From IMG/VR virus record IMGVR_UViG_3300010391_000418, positions 1 through 20,847 of that record: a stretch of 20,847 bases of DNA. One strand, written 5' to 3'. A program made the position numbers and the translations under genes. The notes under the pieces are model-generated. The model ran no database searches and was not told the origin of the DNA. It was given only the letters and a program-made list of their open reading frames with translations. Within the stretch, counting starts at the first letter, position 1. Each line of letters starts with the position of its first letter. The stretch comes from a virus. Positions 2,332 to 18,649 of this stretch are shown here, piece by piece.

Positions 2332-2564
2332 ACAAGATTACGCTCGCAGCTAAGGCTGCCTTTTGGGCAGCCGTGAATCTGGTAGGCTCGACAGCCTTCC
2401 GACACCGACTGGTGGTGCTGGCGGTCCCAGTGGGTATCGAGATCCTAGCGAAGGCTCAGGAAGCGTTCACTGGAGCAGACCCGGGCGTACAGGTCACGAT
2501 CCTCGTAGATACGCTCGCGCTGTTCGTGGCGAACTGGCTGCGCGGGAAGGCGAGTCCTGCATGA
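2328..2564 (+). CDS. Small hydrophobic protein, holin-like, 78 aa
   Basis: An AAAGGAAG Shine-Dalgarno site (2313-2320) precedes the ATG. The protein has a short basic N-terminus (MNKITLAAK), a hydrophobic helix that may extend from residue 8 to 21, a clearer segment at 28-42 (LVVLAVPVGIEILAK), and another at 55-70 (VTILVDTLALFVANWL) before a basic tail (RGKASPA). Size, two or so hydrophobic segments and charged tail fit a phage holin or another small membrane protein. No endolysin is in the window to support a lysis cassette, so the assignment rests on topology alone. It overlaps both neighbours by 4 bases (ATGA). Confidence 0.6.
   Translation: MNKITLAAKAAFWAAVNLVGSTAFRHRLVVLAVPVGIEILAKAQEAFTGADPGVQVTILVDTLALFVANWLRGKASPA
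2354..2372 (+). repeat. Hairpin inside the start of the holin-like gene
   Basis: GGCTGCC (2354-2360) and GGCAGCC (2366-2372) are perfect complements around a 5-base loop TTTTG. The hairpin begins 24 bases after the A of the ATG. It is stable enough to affect early elongation or mRNA life, but 7-bp arms are expected several times by chance in a window this long. Confidence 0.35.
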
Positions 2565-3361
2565 GTTGGCAGGCAGCGGCGTATGTAGACACCCTTGAGA
2601 GTGGGCTGACGCGCAGCGAGAAGCTGCTCATGTTCATCCTTGCAGACCACCACAACCCCGAGAGCGGTTGGGCGTGGCCGTCCATCTCTAGGCTGTCGGT
2701 GAAAGCCATGCTTACGCATCAGCATGTCTACCGGCTGATCAAGTCGCTGGAGAGCAAAGGGTTCATTGAGGTTGAGCACAACGGAGGGCGGCTTTCAAAC
2801 CGCTACCGCTTCCCGGGAATGACCCCTAACACTAAGTTACCCCCTAACATGGATGTTAGGGGTGCCCTAACATCTCCACTGCAACTAACCGATAACGAAC
2901 CGTCAACGGATGATGAAGGAAAGCCGAATTGGCGGGAGTGGTGGGAAGACGTCTCGGCTGGTCTTGGCCTCCCTACGGTGCTGGCACTTACCAACCCTGC
3001 CTCCTACTTCCGGCAGGCTGGCGACCCCCCGCCCCGGATCAACCGACAGCACTGGCGCAGCTTCATCCACCTGATAGACGCAGGACGCCGCGACTATCTG
3101 AAGACTAACCCCTTCCACCCTCTCACGATTCCCGTCCCGGGCTTGGTGAAGGCGCTGCTCCCGGTCGCTGACGGGGTATGGGAGACAGACGGCAACCTTG
3201 GTCGGATTGTGGCGGGCATGAAAGCTGTCGAACCTCACATGCCGGACTGGAGCGACGCCCTCGTAACCATCGCTTACAATCCCTCGGACTTCAACGCGGC
3301 TGTGGCTGCGTGGAAGCCTGACACCACCCCGGCGGAGGAAAGGGAGACGACCTTTGGATAA
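2561..3361 (+). CDS. Winged-helix replication initiator-like protein, 266 aa
   Basis: Residues about 16-72 form an HTH_36-type winged helix: LTRSEKLLMFILADH, then WPSISRLSVKAMLTHQHVYR with the recognition helix, then LIKSLESKGFIEVE as the wing. This domain is common at the N-terminus of phage replication initiators that act like lambda O. A linker follows (about 85-120), then a C-terminal part with YFRQAG and a Trp-rich helical stretch (PNWREWWEDVSAGLG), perhaps for protein contacts. A repeat cluster lies in the linker's DNA, which supports an initiator role. The ATG at 2561 overlaps the upstream TGA (ATGA); the frame is open further upstream, but that part overlaps the holin-like gene. A transcription regulator remains possible. 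No helicase or loader gene is in the window. Confidence 0.68.
   Translation: MSWQAAAYVDTLESGLTRSEKLLMFILADHHNPESGWAWPSISRLSVKAMLTHQHVYRLIKSLESKGFIEVEHNGGRLSNRYRFPGMTPNTKLPPNMDVRGALTSPLQLTDNEPSTDDEGKPNWREWWEDVSAGLGLPTVLALTNPASYFRQAGDPPPRINRQHWRSFIHLIDAGRRDYLKTNPFHPLTIPVPGLVKALLPVADGVWETDGNLGRIVAGMKAVEPHMPDWSDALVTIAYNPSDFNAAVAAWKPDTTPAEERETTFG
2823..2873 (+). repeat. Iteron-like CCCTAACA repeats, candidate replication origin
   Basis: Three direct copies, CCCCTAACAC (2823-2832), CCCCTAACAT (2841-2850) and GCCCTAACAT (2864-2873), and one inverted copy, ATGTTAGGGG (2853-2862), lie within 51 bases. The first two are 18 bases apart. The second copy and the inverted copy form a perfect 10-bp palindrome around GG. 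All lie inside the initiator-like gene (codons 88-105), directly after the part encoding the DNA-binding domain. In phage lambda the origin iterons lie in the same kind of place inside gene O. A purine/A-rich stretch (about 2880-2925) follows and might serve as an unwinding region. The repeats are seen; origin function is inferred. Confidence 0.55.
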
Positions 3362-3722
3362 TCAAGACCCCCACAAGGACCCGACGCGCATCCATAACAT
3401 TCAATTCCTCTGCTACCAAGTAGATCGGAACTACTTGGAGCGGATTCGAGACGACGACGCCTTTGCCTTTGGGCTCACAATCCTTCGGCCAGAAAACGAA
3501 AAGACCCTTGGTGAGGTCCCTTTTCAGCTTCGGATTAAGGACGATCCTGAGCTTGTCAACGCCGATAACTTTCAAGGTGGGATATTTGTCATGGCTAGTG
3601 TGAAGCCCGTCGTCCTTCAGCAGGCGCTCGCGGTTGGGCTCTCGTGGATGCAACAGACTGGCCGCTTGGCGTGCGATTCCTTCTATGACCGCAACGGACA
3701 CGAGGAGGCCCCCATTGGCTAA
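3354..3722 (+). CDS. Hypothetical protein, 122 aa, TTG start
   Basis: The TTG at 3354 has a purine-rich ribosome site (GGAGGAAAGGGAGA, 3333-3346) and overlaps the end of the initiator-like gene by 8 bases. The product (MDNQDPHKDPTRIHNIQFLC...) is acidic with mixed alpha/beta character: NIQFLCYQVDRNYLERI, ENEKTLGEVPFQLRIKDD, GGIFVMASVKPVVLQQALAVGLSWM. No membrane segment or known motif is visible. It lies between the initiator-like gene and the second protease and overlaps the latter by 8 bases, so the three are probably co-translated. I do not recognise a family and propose no function. Confidence 0.65.
   Translation: MDNQDPHKDPTRIHNIQFLCYQVDRNYLERIRDDDAFAFGLTILRPENEKTLGEVPFQLRIKDDPELVNADNFQGGIFVMASVKPVVLQQALAVGLSWMQQTGRLACDSFYDRNGHEEAPIG
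3702..3708 (+). promoter_or_regulatory. Strong Shine-Dalgarno site fixing a TTG start
   Basis: GAGGAGG at 3702-3708 lies 6 bases before the TTG at 3715. It decides the start of the second ClpP-like gene. An in-frame ATG at 3634 lies 81 bases upstream, inside the preceding gene, and would add an Arg-rich 27-residue leader that looks non-coding. Confidence 0.75.
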
Positions 3723-4335
3723 TGGTGCCGGAACCGCTGCGTCGCAAATGTGGGAAGATAGCCGCACTTTTACCACCGACTTAGACATCATGCGGGTCCC
3801 CCGCCTCGTGCGGATCTTCGGGGATATTGGCTACCCCAACGATGAGGCCCCGATTGCGGTTACCGCGCTTGAAGTGACCAACGACATCATCGAGTTGGTC
3901 CAACGAGATCATCACACCTCGATCACTGTCCTGATCAATAGTGATGGCGGAAGCGTGTACGAAGGCATGGCGATGCTGGATGCCTTCGATGAGGCTCGGC
4001 GGCACGGCGTCAAGGTTGTGACCCGCTGTGTGGGCCGAGCGCAATCGATGGCCGCAGACCTTCTGGTTTGCGGCGGCGACTTCCGCACCATCTCTCCCAA
4101 CAGCTTTGTGATGGTTCACGGGGCTTCGGATAAGGGGCTGCGCTTTGGGGATGATCTGGACATGGAGAGTGAGATGCGCATCCGGGCGATCTCACGCGAA
4201 CGCTTGTTGGACTTGTACGAACAGAAGACGAGTAAGCCCCGGCGATACTGGGCAGCCATCTTCAAAGACTCCCGCCCAGTGTTCTACACGCCTACGGAGG
4301 CAGAGTCCGTAGGCATTGTAGACGCGGTGTACTAA
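3715..4335 (+). CDS. ClpP-like serine protease 2, 206 aa, TTG start
   Basis: From the TTG the product is 206 residues, close to cellular ClpP length. ClpP-fold marks are the oxyanion stretch INSDGGSVYEG (G78-G79), the nucleophile S111 in GRAQSMAADLL, and H135 in FVMVHGAS. The ending TEAESVGIVDAVY matches the ClpP C-terminus. D185 in FKDSRPVFYT sits close to the expected triad Asp but with a one-residue shift. It shares little obvious sequence with the first protease beyond these motifs and lacks its coiled coil, so the pair do not look like a recent duplication. The substrate is unknown: head maturation or host protein breakdown are both possible. It ends the left gene cluster, and a promoter follows. 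Confidence 0.85.
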   Translation: MANGAGTAASQMWEDSRTFTTDLDIMRVPRLVRIFGDIGYPNDEAPIAVTALEVTNDIIELVQRDHHTSITVLINSDGGSVYEGMAMLDAFDEARRHGVKVVTRCVGRAQSMAADLLVCGGDFRTISPNSFVMVHGASDKGLRFGDDLDMESEMRIRAISRERLLDLYEQKTSKPRRYWAAIFKDSRPVFYTPTEAESVGIVDAVY

Positions 4336-13234: not shown

Positions 13235-16200
13235 ATGGGATTTCCTGATGTCCTCGGCAAGGTGAAGGATGTCCTCGGCAGTGTTACGCCGGGGGTGGTG
13301 AAGGATGCGTTGCTTGGGGATCGCACTGCACCGCCTACGCCGACTTCTGATCAGCAAGCTCGGGACTTGACCGACGCCTCGATTGGGCGTCAGCCGGGCG
13401 ACGAGGAAATCGTGAATCGGCTGAAGTCGTACCAGATTACGGCTAAAGCAATCCGGGTTTTGAATGAAGCTACGGGTGGCCTATCGGCCGGTCCTTTTGC
13501 TGGGACGACCCGTGCCCAGTGGGCCACCGGGCAGATACCGCAACCTCCCGATCCGTATACGATCGCCTCAACGGATCTACAGAGTTACTTCCAGCAAACG
13601 CCACGGGCGTCGCTGCTGTATGCCCGCAACTTCGACCCGCAGAACAAAGAGATAATGCCGTATCTGATCGAGTCACAGATAACTCGTCACGGTGGGTTGC
13701 TCTCGACGTTCAAATCAGCCGTTAGTGATCTGGCGGGCCGACCAATTGGGGGCGCACTGGATCTACTGGTGAAGCCCGCGAAGTGGGTAGAGATTCAGTA
13801 CGGCACGCACTTCGTCTGGAACGACATCGGCGACGCTTCTTTGAAGCGGGCAATGGCGAAGTACACCTATGAGGCACGGCTCAACCTAAATGATTGGAAT
13901 GGCTCGTGGGAGAGCAAGGCGCGGCTGCGGGCTGAGCAAATCGAGACTCAAGGACTGCGGGGGGATCAGGCTGCGTCCGAGTTCGAGAAGTGGATTCACA
14001 GCGAGGCGGGCAACCCCGGCCTCTCCGCAGCATTTACCGACTTCGCGGCACAAGTTGCGTTCGACCCCTTGTGGCTAGTGCCCGGCGATTCGATTTTGAA
14101 GGGCGCAGGCAAAGGCGTGCGCGCCGCTACTCGTCTTGATGAGGGGACTGCACTCAGTCGTCTGTTCCGTCTTGGTTCGGCGGCAGCCGCTCGTAGTATG
14201 TTTGGCTTCGACAGCGTGAATGAGATGTTGAAGGCGGACGAATTGGCCTATCGTACAGCACAAATTACCACGCCGGGCCTGCGCGGGTCGCAACTTTGGC
14301 TCTTTGAAAAGACACCCCAACGGCTCGGTGATTCCATAGCTCGTGAGACTTCCTTGGCGCTGTCAGGACCTTTGGCGCGAGCAACGACGTTGGACGATCA
14401 GATTGGGGTGCTGGCTCATTTCAACGAGGTGATGCGCACCGGCAAAGTCGAGGGCGAGGCAGCGGTCTTGTTTGGCAAGGACTTGTTTTCCAAGCCAGTC
14501 TTCGCTCAAGCACAAGCGCGGTTGGGGCAGTTGGCCGGGCGGCAGGCTGTGGAGGGCGTGCTGGAAGGTCTGACGAAGCATCCGAATCTTGCGGCGGCAC
14601 CGGCGGCGGAGCGTGCGCGCCTGCTGTCGTTGCACGTGGAAAGTACGATGCGCACGGCGATGGTGGACGCACAGAACGCGATCTACCCGCAGTGGTTTAG
14701 GAAGCGCTACTTGCCAATCGTCGCGTGGCAGAAAGCGACGATGGGCATGTTCACCCTCTCGCGGCCGGGATTCGTCGCCTTGAACATGGGCAATAACCTG
14801 TTCACGTATATGTGGACTGGCCTTCTGCATCCTACCGCAATTCCTGATATGGCACGCGACTTTGGTCGCGCACTGCACGCGGAAACCTTCTCGAAGGAAG
14901 TGCCCGAAGTCTGGAAGAAACTGGCCGTGTCACAAGGGATCGACTTCAACGACGTCGAGCGGACGATTGCTGGCAACGTGACGCGAGAGGAAATCTTCGG
15001 GCAGATCGACAAGCGCGGCTTCAACTTGAACGACGACGATTTGAACGTGAAGCTGGCCTTGAAAGCGGCGCGACAGGCTGTCACGAAGCCACTCAAGGAC
15101 CTGACGCCATTCAAGTTCTCCTCGGTGCTGACGTGGCCGGTTCTGGCTGCTTCGCGGCTGGATCGTGGCACTCGTCGCGCGACGTTCTACAATGCGCTGA
15201 AGGAACAGGTGAATCTTGGCACATCTCCGGCTCGGGTAATCAATGGGCTCATCCCCGAACTGAAGAAGGGGCTGATGGGGTCTGGCCTCGACGCAAAGAC
15301 GGCGGAACGCTGGGAGGGGCACATGATCTCCTCGATGCGCTCCTTCATCTACGGCGGCGGTTCAATGGCCGATCCTAATGCGATGCGGGCAGCGTGGCTC
15401 AGGGCGTCGCAAGAGTTGATCGACAGTCGTCCAGCGTCACACGTGTCCGCTTACGACTACGCGCTGCGCTACGCGCGGGAGCGTCTTGGCATGACGGAGG
15501 AAGCGGCGGTCCACTACATTCGTGACCTAGACCCGACCATCACGCAGATTCATAACGAGGTCTTTCAGCAGTTGGGAGACACGCCAGACGTGAAGCTGGC
15601 GATTGATCGGCTCGACAACATCGGCGACAAGCTGTGGACAGTGGACCGAGTGTCTGCCAACGCCACAAAGACCGCTCCGGTGCTTCGTCCGGCGACTGGC
15701 TACAGTCGGGGGCTGTCTCTGACTGAGGACGGTATCCGTGAGGACCTGCTGGATAGCGTGAAGCACATTGATCGGCTGGCGAGCACGGTGCTGCCCGACT
15801 GGGCGGGCAATGCTTTTGCCCGGCGCAAGATCCTTGGCGCGGCTGATGAGATGATTCAAGGCCGCTTGGCCCGCTTGGCAAACGTGCGACGCGCGAAGAT
15901 GGAGGCCCTCGCGGCAGGCGCAGCGAGCACTCCTGAATGGGCCAAGCGTGAGGCAGAGTTGTGGACCGATTACCGAGACTTCACGCGCGAAGCACAGCGC
16001 GGCTTGTTTGATGCTGTCCACGCGGAACTGAGTAGCGTAGATGAGCACACGCAGAAGGTCATCGAAGACTGGTACGCGACGCTGATCAAAACACAGGACG
16101 AGCACCAGAAGATCATTCAAGCGGCTCGGACGATCGACACACCGGAAGCGTGGGAGAAGGCGGGCGAGAAAGTCAAGAACGTCTACGAACAGGCGGCTCT

Positions 16201-18649
16201 ACGGCGTGCGGACATTTTCAACTGGGCACCGAATGAGGCCGAAATGAACATGGGCCACCTGCGCCCAACTGCCCCTCTTGTGCGCCAGAATGAGGAGTTC
16301 ATCAAGTACGTCGCCGACAACCTCGGGGCGGATCTGGCGGCTGCAATCCATGGTGGGACTGGCATCACAGGCACCGCTACGGCACATGACATCCTGCGCT
16401 CGGCCGCTAACGATGTCGCAGAACGAGCGCCGGATATTGCTCGGCAGCATGTGGCGAACGCCCGCGCGAAGACGGACTTCGTAATGCTTGACTACGACAA
16501 CCAGATCGGGCTCGACTCGGCGTTGCAGATGTTTGCGCCTTACGAGTTCTTCCCGACGCGGACTGCCTACAACTGGGCGATTCGTGTGGCTCGGAACCCT
16601 GGGACAGGGGCGGCGTTGGTGAAGGCGATTCTCAACCCGGCGGATTACGCATCGCGCTACGGTCAGCCTGATCGTTTGAAGTACCGCATCCCGATCCCCA
16701 TCCCGTTTCTACAGGATTGGCTGCGGGGGATGCCGTTCATCGGTGACAAGATCCAGAGCGCTGACTTCGGCAATATCTATTGGGTTGACCCGTTGCAGTA
16801 TATGTTCCCGCTGACGAACTTCCGCAACGAGTTCGACGACGAAGCAAAGACGGGCGTCGGGCTTGGCGGTGTGGCAAACTACTTTGAGCAGAACACGCCG
16901 CTTGGTATCTCTCCGTTCGCGAAGATCATTGGGGGCTTCACGGGCCTGTTGGATCGTGATGCGTGGACCAACTCGATGTTCCAAGGCGGGCCGTTCGGTA
17001 TTCCGATGACGGCCTACGGCGCGGCGGCTGGTAAGTGGCTCTACACCGGCGACGGGTCGGATGTGCCGGACACCGAGAAGGACGCCTTCACTCAGCTTGG
17101 TCACTTCACCAAGAACTACCTTGCGCAGATCGTGGGTCTGAAGGGCAACCGCTTCGATGACTACCGCCGCGAGCGGGCTCTTGCCTCGGTGGTCGCTGAG
17201 GGAAAGATCACGGCTGACGACGCTAAGGACGCGATGTTCACACACAAGGGCGAGACGTGGAACAAAGCGGTGAAGGCGGCGGAGTCAGAGAAGTTTCTCT
17301 CGGACTTCACTGGCTGGCTTGGATTCCGCGTTACAGGCTCCATGAAGGGCGAGCAGATTCGACTTGGAGAGAAAGCGCTGTACTCGAAAGCGGCGGCGGA
17401 AGGCACGCTCTCGGACTTCTTCGCGAAGTTCCCTGACTACGAAGTTTACAACATCGCCGTCAAGGGCATTAAGGACCCGAAGGAACGACAGGCCGCGCTA
17501 GAGACAACGCTGTACTACCGCGACTTGGAAACCTACGTGAACGCGCCATACCAGAAGTCTCTTGACGACTTGGAGACGCGCATCGATGCGATTCGTGGCA
17601 AGGATTCTCTCACGGAGTCGGACATTGAGCAGATCAAGTATCTGAACGACAACGTGGCCTCGATCAAGAACGAACAGCGAACCGTCCGTGACATGGTGGA
17701 TCGTGCCTATCCGAATCGGACTACGGATCTGTCGTTGAGGATGCCGCCGAAAGAGCGCGCTCTCACCGAAGCCGCCGCCGGGTGGTACGACATGCAACAG
17801 GGGGTGGGGGATGGCGTCCCGGCCGATGAGTCTTACGAGGACTTCCAAGCCCGCCGAGAAAGCTGGCTTCGTGCTCTGCCCGCCAAGGGCTCCGATCAGT
17901 CGGAGTACGATTGGGAACAGTTGTTCGGAGAGTACCAAGTAACTGTTAGTCGGTACAATCTGATGATCAACAAAGCCTACGGCAACGGAGACTTTGATGA
18001 GGGCCAGCGCTTGTCTGACGAGCGCGATGCCATGCTGTCGGCAGTCCATGAGAAGGCGGCCGAGCGGGTCACGCGCTACGACATGGAACACTGGCTCGCC
18101 CAGTTCTCGCGCCGGGCGACGCCCGCTGAGGTAGAGTTCAACACCGCAGCCGATCAGTTTCAGCTTTGGATGTCTCTCGTTGGCGATCTCTCGCCCCTGA
18201 CAAATCGGCAGAAGGCGGCAGTGTCGGCGTACTTCCGCTCCCTCCCGCTGTTGCAGAAGCACTACAACGCCTCAATCCTCAACATCAACCTGCTGAACGG
18301 CGACCAGTTAGCGGCCTTCGCCCGGCGCAAGGAGATTCGGGATCACTACAACAACCTTGCGACGGATGACGCCAAGATCGATTACATGAAGTCGGTGGCC
18401 GACGAATACAACGCGATTCAGGACATGCTGGGCCTGCCGCGCGTGGACATTGTGGATGTGCGGCCCTCTCCTCCCGGTGTGAGCCATTCCAGCTACTCTA
18501 GCGCTCTTGACGGCTTCAGTGGGGGCGGGCGGGACCTGACGGACTTTCTCGCAGGCGGACCGGACGATATTCAGTCCGACAAGCCAATGGCCATCGAGAC
18601 ACGAGATGTCCAACGCTATGTCACCGCGACGATCGGACGCGGGTACTAG
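13235..18649 (+). CDS. Giant virion-associated protein, 1804 aa
   Basis: This single frame takes up a quarter of the window. It starts with an amphipathic repeat (DVLGKVK, DVLGSVT; a 13-base DNA repeat at 13247 and 13268). The rest is mostly helical. Two stretches resemble blocks I associate with very large phage proteins: SRPGFVALNMGNNLFTYM (about 508-526) and MFAPYEFFPTRTAYNWAIR (about 1097-1115), the second like the 'PFy.wtR..ip' block seen in such proteins. A long acidic helical region follows (about 1490-1560: LDDLETRIDAIRGKDSLTES). I see no lysozyme, transglycosylase or protease motif and no repeats typical of tape measures. It is most likely an internal head or ejection protein. GGGGAT (13221-13226) serves the ATG 3 bases after the upstream stop. 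Confidence 0.72.
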   Translation: MGFPDVLGKVKDVLGSVTPGVVKDALLGDRTAPPTPTSDQQARDLTDASIGRQPGDEEIVNRLKSYQITAKAIRVLNEATGGLSAGPFAGTTRAQWATGQIPQPPDPYTIASTDLQSYFQQTPRASLLYARNFDPQNKEIMPYLIESQITRHGGLLSTFKSAVSDLAGRPIGGALDLLVKPAKWVEIQYGTHFVWNDIGDASLKRAMAKYTYEARLNLNDWNGSWESKARLRAEQIETQGLRGDQAASEFEKWIHSEAGNPGLSAAFTDFAAQVAFDPLWLVPGDSILKGAGKGVRAATRLDEGTALSRLFRLGSAAAARSMFGFDSVNEMLKADELAYRTAQITTPGLRGSQLWLFEKTPQRLGDSIARETSLALSGPLARATTLDDQIGVLAHFNEVMRTGKVEGEAAVLFGKDLFSKPVFAQAQARLGQLAGRQAVEGVLEGLTKHPNLAAAPAAERARLLSLHVESTMRTAMVDAQNAIYPQWFRKRYLPIVAWQKATMGMFTLSRPGFVALNMGNNLFTYMWTGLLHPTAIPDMARDFGRALHAETFSKEVPEVWKKLAVSQGIDFNDVERTIAGNVTREEIFGQIDKRGFNLNDDDLNVKLALKAARQAVTKPLKDLTPFKFSSVLTWPVLAASRLDRGTRRATFYNALKEQVNLGTSPARVINGLIPELKKGLMGSGLDAKTAERWEGHMISSMRSFIYGGGSMADPNAMRAAWLRASQELIDSRPASHVSAYDYALRYARERLGMTEEAAVHYIRDLDPTITQIHNEVFQQLGDTPDVKLAIDRLDNIGDKLWTVDRVSANATKTAPVLRPATGYSRGLSLTEDGIREDLLDSVKHIDRLASTVLPDWAGNAFARRKILGAADEMIQGRLARLANVRRAKMEALAAGAASTPEWAKREAELWTDYRDFTREAQRGLFDAVHAELSSVDEHTQKVIEDWYATLIKTQDEHQKIIQAARTIDTPEAWEKAGEKVKNVYEQAALRRADIFNWAPNEAEMNMGHLRPTAPLVRQNEEFIKYVADNLGADLAAAIHGGTGITGTATAHDILRSAANDVAERAPDIARQHVANARAKTDFVMLDYDNQIGLDSALQMFAPYEFFPTRTAYNWAIRVARNPGTGAALVKAILNPADYASRYGQPDRLKYRIPIPIPFLQDWLRGMPFIGDKIQSADFGNIYWVDPLQYMFPLTNFRNEFDDEAKTGVGLGGVANYFEQNTPLGISPFAKIIGGFTGLLDRDAWTNSMFQGGPFGIPMTAYGAAAGKWLYTGDGSDVPDTEKDAFTQLGHFTKNYLAQIVGLKGNRFDDYRRERALASVVAEGKITADDAKDAMFTHKGETWNKAVKAAESEKFLSDFTGWLGFRVTGSMKGEQIRLGEKALYSKAAAEGTLSDFFAKFPDYEVYNIAVKGIKDPKERQAALETTLYYRDLETYVNAPYQKSLDDLETRIDAIRGKDSLTESDIEQIKYLNDNVASIKNEQRTVRDMVDRAYPNRTTDLSLRMPPKERALTEAAAGWYDMQQGVGDGVPADESYEDFQARRESWLRALPAKGSDQSEYDWEQLFGEYQVTVSRYNLMINKAYGNGDFDEGQRLSDERDAMLSAVHEKAAERVTRYDMEHWLAQFSRRATPAEVEFNTAADQFQLWMSLVGDLSPLTNRQKAAVSAYFRSLPLLQKHYNASILNINLLNGDQLAAFARRKEIRDHYNNLATDDAKIDYMKSVADEYNAIQDMLGLPRVDIVDVRPSPPGVSHSSYSSALDGFSGGGRDLTDFLAGGPDDIQSDKPMAIETRDVQRYVTATIGRGY

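Follow-up and report, generated by a model that had tools for sequence, protein, structure and literature searches.

The repeat cluster at positions 2822–2874 of the window, the whole 20,847-bp stretch of viral DNA analysed here, is probably the initiator-binding part of a lambda-type intragenic replication origin with an iteron of its own. The repeats lie on the linker codons of an initiator-like gene, are constrained as DNA and not as peptide, have close counterparts in a distant initiator, and share their layout with the repeats of other initiators. That the protein binds here, opens the strands and recruits a helicase, and that the site acts as an origin, we infer from this arrangement.

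Repeat copies and palindromes

Motif density was computed on the 20,847-bp record, itself a genome fragment. Exactly four exact copies of CCCTAACA were found, all at 2824–2872 and none elsewhere: three on the plus strand, at 2824–2831 (followed by C), 2842–2849 and 2865–2872 (each followed by T), and one inverted on the minus strand at 2854–2861, where it reads CCCTAACAT. An earlier, sequence-only reading had described three direct repeats and one inverted repeat in 51 bases (2823–2873), two of them forming a perfect palindrome, and had proposed the density check; the copies are exactly as it described, and the motif is confined to the cluster. The middle two copies form the palindrome at 2841–2862, CCCCTAACAT-GG-ATGTTAGGGG, which gives the full palindromic iteron unit CCCCTAACATGGATGTTAGGGG with two perfect 10-nt arms, half-sites B (plus strand) and C (minus strand), around a 2-nt centre. 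Half-site D (2865–2874, plus strand, CCCTAACATC) pairs with half-site C over a 3-nt spacer, giving a second perfect 10-nt arm pair at 2852–2861/2865–2874, and half-site A (2822–2831, plus strand, ACCCCTAACA) has no good partner. In terms of inverted repeats, the cluster contains a perfect palindrome of 22 bp and another that overlaps it; no other site in the window matches the 22-bp unit at more than 14/22 positions.

The dinucleotide shuffle mean for CCCTAACA was 0.22 copies per record, and four copies were reached in 0 of 100 shuffles. With one mismatch allowed, 11 sites were found against 8.6 expected, with no enrichment elsewhere in the record. A scan of the window for 8-mers with four copies inside 100 bp returned this cluster only; in 16 related phage records or loci, ~540 kb together, it gave one further cluster, which is intergenic.

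Constraint on the DNA

Synonymous recodings were generated with the protein held fixed, their codons following the codon usage of the genes in the window. None of 20,000 recodings contained an 8-mer four times within 60 bp, and 14 contained one three times, so the DNA itself, and not the peptide, is constrained. The four copies encode TPNT, PPNM, DVRG and ALT. Both strands are used, and three sites share one codon phase with the fourth in another, so a repeated peptide cannot explain the cluster.

The initiator-like gene and its protein

The gene (2561–3361, plus strand) encodes 266 aa, comprising an N-terminal winged helix (HTH_36), a linker without confident structure and a C-terminal part of unknown family. 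The Pfam match to PF13730 (HTH_36) covers residues 15–69 (E 6.2e-9; 36 bits against a curated cut-off of 25), encoded by 2603–2767 on the plus strand, and the predicted wing strands run on to ~2809. Several PHROG families of replication initiation or O-like proteins matched the gene, through its N-terminal half only, including phrog_270 'replication initiation protein' (E 9e-12) and phrog_391 'O-like' (E 1e-10). The RepA_N domain (PF06970) was absent among the Pfam matches of the protein at E ≤ 0.01. No relative turned up when viral contigs were scanned with the window protein, and tblastn against phages and plasmids gave nothing beyond weak HTH-domain matches and no close homologue.

An AlphaFold2 model, built from a shallow alignment, predicted helices at residues 18–29, 42–49 and 53–65 and strands at 70–74 and 77–83 with pLDDT of about 64–82, and pLDDT was below 50 from residue 88 on; the winged helix (residues 18–83) is of moderate confidence and is the sole reliable part. 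Because the model is reliable for the winged helix alone, the PDB fold search matched only generic winged-helix regulators (MarR- and Fur-like) and, lower down, the DnaD N-terminal domain, none of them at E < 0.001. Residue 69 is the last of the HTH_36 match and residue 83 the last of the predicted wing, and the repeats encode residues 88–104, the start of the linker; they lie directly after the winged-helix codons, as had been claimed, and inside the initiator gene between its DNA-binding and C-terminal parts, which is the lambda-type arrangement. Since this linker has no predicted structure, a constraint on its DNA would be cheap for the protein.

A distant initiator with nearly the same unit

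Pattern searches over 2.9 million viral contigs were performed with the repeat alone, either as three direct copies of CCCTAACA or as a single degenerate palindromic unit; such searches do not select for gene content, and the degenerate positions of the single-unit pattern were picked after L056 had been seen. They led to the initiator of IMG/VR contig 3300027917_000014 (L056/L167), whose protein matches HTH_36 (E 1e-6) and phrog_270 (E 4e-9) and is 30% identical to the window protein over 111 aa. Where the window gene has its 22-bp unit, this initiator has one that is nearly the same. It differs from the window in having four full units after the HTH, CCCCTAACACAGATGTGAGGGG and variants, each 17–19/22 identical to the window unit, and in the strong AT tract (85% AT) that comes after them. 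A protein search with the L056 initiator returned itself only. A unit that is nearly kept while the protein has diverged is what would be expected of an initiator and its binding site, and the sequence comparison, small in number, suggests such a relationship.

Three related prophage contigs found with the single-unit pattern (L093, L096 and L097) have one unit directly after the HTH_36 domain, as part of a larger array whose other repeats differ from it. Of the 35 stretches found with three CCCTAACA copies, most were tandem coding repeats or intergenic arrays and were dropped, and a single-unit scan of bacterial genomes gave hairpins and other matches outside initiator genes.

The same layout in other HTH_36 initiators

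A further 44 initiator genes, collected by phrog_391 and phrog_270 searches, were surveyed; their genomes fall mostly in two bacterial classes, that of a Shewanella genome and that of a Sutcliffiella genome, and L122 and L093 are one gene. In 16 of the 44, an 8-mer cluster stood above every one of 30 codon shuffles, and in 11 of these 16 the 40-bp AT maximum of the gene starts no more than 100 nt 3′ of the cluster. Since it counts exact 8-mers, the test is strict, and the remaining 28 genes are not thereby repeat-free. Obvious palindromes are frequent among the 16 clusters, for example GTATGGTCACAGAGACCATAC in L165. Perfect or near-perfect palindromic intragenic iterons, all different in sequence, were seen at positions 392–483 of the initiator gene in L165, 401–502 in L152 and 282–423 in L136, three prophage-type initiators.

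Pseudomonas phages TC7 (L117) and PotUPM1 (L116) resemble the window in an alignable HTH N-terminus with C-rich repeats immediately after it, in their case six to seven copies of ACCCCCGCA, and the AT maximum of the gene, with tandem GAACC elements, lies 3′ of these repeats. They differ from the window in their iteron, ACCCCCGCAG, and in TC7 by the following gene, which is annotated replication P. The initiator of phage C72C1 has three repeats of a different sequence.

Tandem (G)AACC elements, ~11–12 nt apart, lie 3′ of the repeats in L093, L116 and L117, and two copies occur in the window at 2887–2901. These elements are possibly a conserved part of the unwinding region, an observation and not a rule.

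Comparison with known systems

In lambda, the origin lies midway along gene O and comprises iterons, each an imperfect inverted repeat of 19 bp, and an AT-rich tract (PMC7466680); lambda O, P22 gp18 and phage L gp18 have different iterons, each inside its own gene (PMC8022706). The window gene is like all three in having iterons within the initiator gene and an iteron sequence of its own. It is unlike lambda in its motif, in its weak AT tract and in the lack of a recognised adjacent P-type loader gene; lambda has four inverted-repeat units of about 19–20 bp, whereas the window has one full unit plus half-sites. The suggestion of the sequence-only reading that the motif defines a separate initiator/iteron pair is reasonable, but such a pair would be ordinary, since these three phage initiators already each have different iterons (PMC8022706).

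Among plasmids, the winged-helix N-terminus of the pSK41 initiator binds boxes in the central part of rep, and the linker that the origin encodes can be dispensed with; in pPR9 a PF13730 N-terminus occupies that place, and the rep region replicates autonomously (PMC5703833). These staphylococcal Rep proteins differ from the window protein in being plasmid initiators with a DnaG-binding C-terminus, and the pSK41 N-terminus is RepA_N, not HTH_36. Paracoccus plasmids with an HTH_36 Rep have iteron-like repeats at their predicted origins (PMC3832669). The window cluster is an extension of a known arrangement and not a new one.

Local stability and GC skew

An AT-rich tract is typical of lambda-type origins. 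The window gene has no clear AT tract 3′ of the repeats of the kind seen in lambda or L056, and its AT maximum (57.5% in 40 bp) sits on the repeats. By nearest-neighbour free energies, the least stable 40-bp stretch of the gene is 2819–2858, and the 40-mer at 2820–2859 is among the least stable 0.7% of the 40-mers of the window. The candidate unwinding stretch 3′ of the repeats, 2885–2924, falls in the least stable 4.2%, a modest destabilisation only; it contains two top-strand AACC elements, at 2887–2890 and 2898–2901, 11 nt apart. GC skew is positive up to 2.5 kb, near zero or weakly negative between 2.5 and 4.5 kb, and positive beyond that. The turning point of cumulative skew that had been anticipated at the cluster is absent from the 20.8-kb record, in which the main genes all run in one direction and the genome is incomplete.

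Genomic context and related phages

The initiator gene lies between two different ClpP-like (head maturation protease-like) genes, at 1307–2053 and 3721–4335, and upstream of the terminase, portal-position and SU10-type capsid genes; the portal-position gene is named by its place after the terminase and is without a family match. The next gene (3354–3722, 122 aa) matches no PHROG family and, in Pfam, only weakly and below the cut-off. No helicase loader gene was recognised next to the initiator with Pfam or PHROG; the record is a fragment, and a loader may lie elsewhere in the genome.

Eighteen records share terminase and portal-position proteins with the window at about 42–54% identity. No phrog_270 initiator was detectable in these 18, several of which are fragments, and HTH_36 left weak sub-cut-off traces only. 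One of them, G014, encodes a DNA polymerase, a DnaB-like helicase, a primase, a UvsX-like recombinase and a single-strand binding protein, and another, G008, a DNA polymerase. With the polymerase, helicase and primase of G014, the lineage has other means to replicate; together with the lack of a detectable initiator in the 18 relatives, the replication genes of G014 and G008 indicate that the window initiator may be a swapped-in replication cassette, either replaced or added. A more specific and rather doubtful proposal is that a lineage with its own DNA polymerase, primase and DnaB-like helicase captured a lambda-type cassette, whose O-like protein would load the phage-encoded helicase, and not that of the host, at an intragenic origin with its own iteron.

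Origin model and alternative explanations

In the origin reading, the winged helix of the protein encoded at 2561–3361 would bind CCCCTAACA half-sites; on the 22-bp palindrome it would probably do so as a dimer. Protein on neighbouring half-sites would build a nucleoprotein complex that bends the DNA and opens it where it is weak, within the repeats and immediately 3′ of them, and the C-terminal part of the initiator would then recruit the replicative helicase or its loader. The lambda-type intragenic origin of the sequence-only reading stands as the best-supported interpretation, on the HTH_36/O-like initiator, the linker repeats, the unit of the distant initiator and the common layout; its skew check gave no support on the 20.8-kb record and was uninformative there. 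Counting against an origin are the weak AT tract, the single full unit with half-sites only, the absence of a skew turning point and of a recognised adjacent loader, and the relatives without a detectable initiator, one of which (G014) has replication genes of its own.

It is unlikely that the site is an operator or copy-number control site and not an origin, at which the winged-helix protein regulates its own or downstream transcription or limits initiation. A dimeric repressor would be well served by palindromic half-sites, and MarR- and Fur-like repressors stand beside DnaD among the fold matches, but all four copies lie ~260 bp inside the gene, near no start codon, and no sigma-70-like promoter was found near them. 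The families matched in PHROG are those of replication initiation proteins and not of regulators, and in other initiators the arrays are followed by AT-rich tracts.

A vestigial or secondary origin, left by an initiator gene captured from another replicon and no longer driving phage replication, would fit the related phages without a detectable initiator gene, one of which (G014) encodes its own replisome, as well as the one full unit and the weak unwinding stretch. We consider this fairly improbable: the reading frame is intact, and the repeats are still exact although much of the sequence is synonymously free to drift.

The palindrome could also act as an mRNA hairpin, that is, an attenuator, pause or stability element, and the transcript over it folds at −23.4 kcal/mol (z −2.29); however, 7 of 200 shuffles fold equally well, no T run follows the palindrome, the repeats are not among the terminator-like sites, no Rfam family matches the repeat region, and a hairpin leaves the additional direct copies beyond it unexplained, which makes this account very improbable. 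Least credible of all is that chance or a peptide repeat made similar linker peptides (TPNT and PPNM, in two of the copies) use similar codons, given the two strands, two codon phases, four peptides and 0 of 20,000 recodings described above.

Read as an origin, the cluster offers an initiator/iteron pair, from a group of uncultured phages, that can be put to the test. Initiators of only ~30% identity can have a 22-bp unit nearly in common, while others with this fold have units of their own, so HTH_36 initiators are a possible set for decoding how the recognition helix specifies the iteron.

Other repeat arrays and a long reading frame

An 1804-aa ORF (13235–18649) between the portal-position and capsid genes had no tblastn match in related loci, and G014 has a 1496-aa frame in the corresponding place. 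Among the search results, an intergenic CCCCTAAC array in both orientations was seen at ~3900–4200 of L061, a 34.6-kb viral contig, outside any initiator gene; L065 is another stretch from the three-copy CCCTAACA search. In G006, a relative by terminase and portal-position proteins, intergenic direct and inverted AACCCATTGTG-type repeats lie near a helicase-like gene (L047, 5205–5342; G006, 25205–25342), and this cluster is a candidate origin of a different layout.
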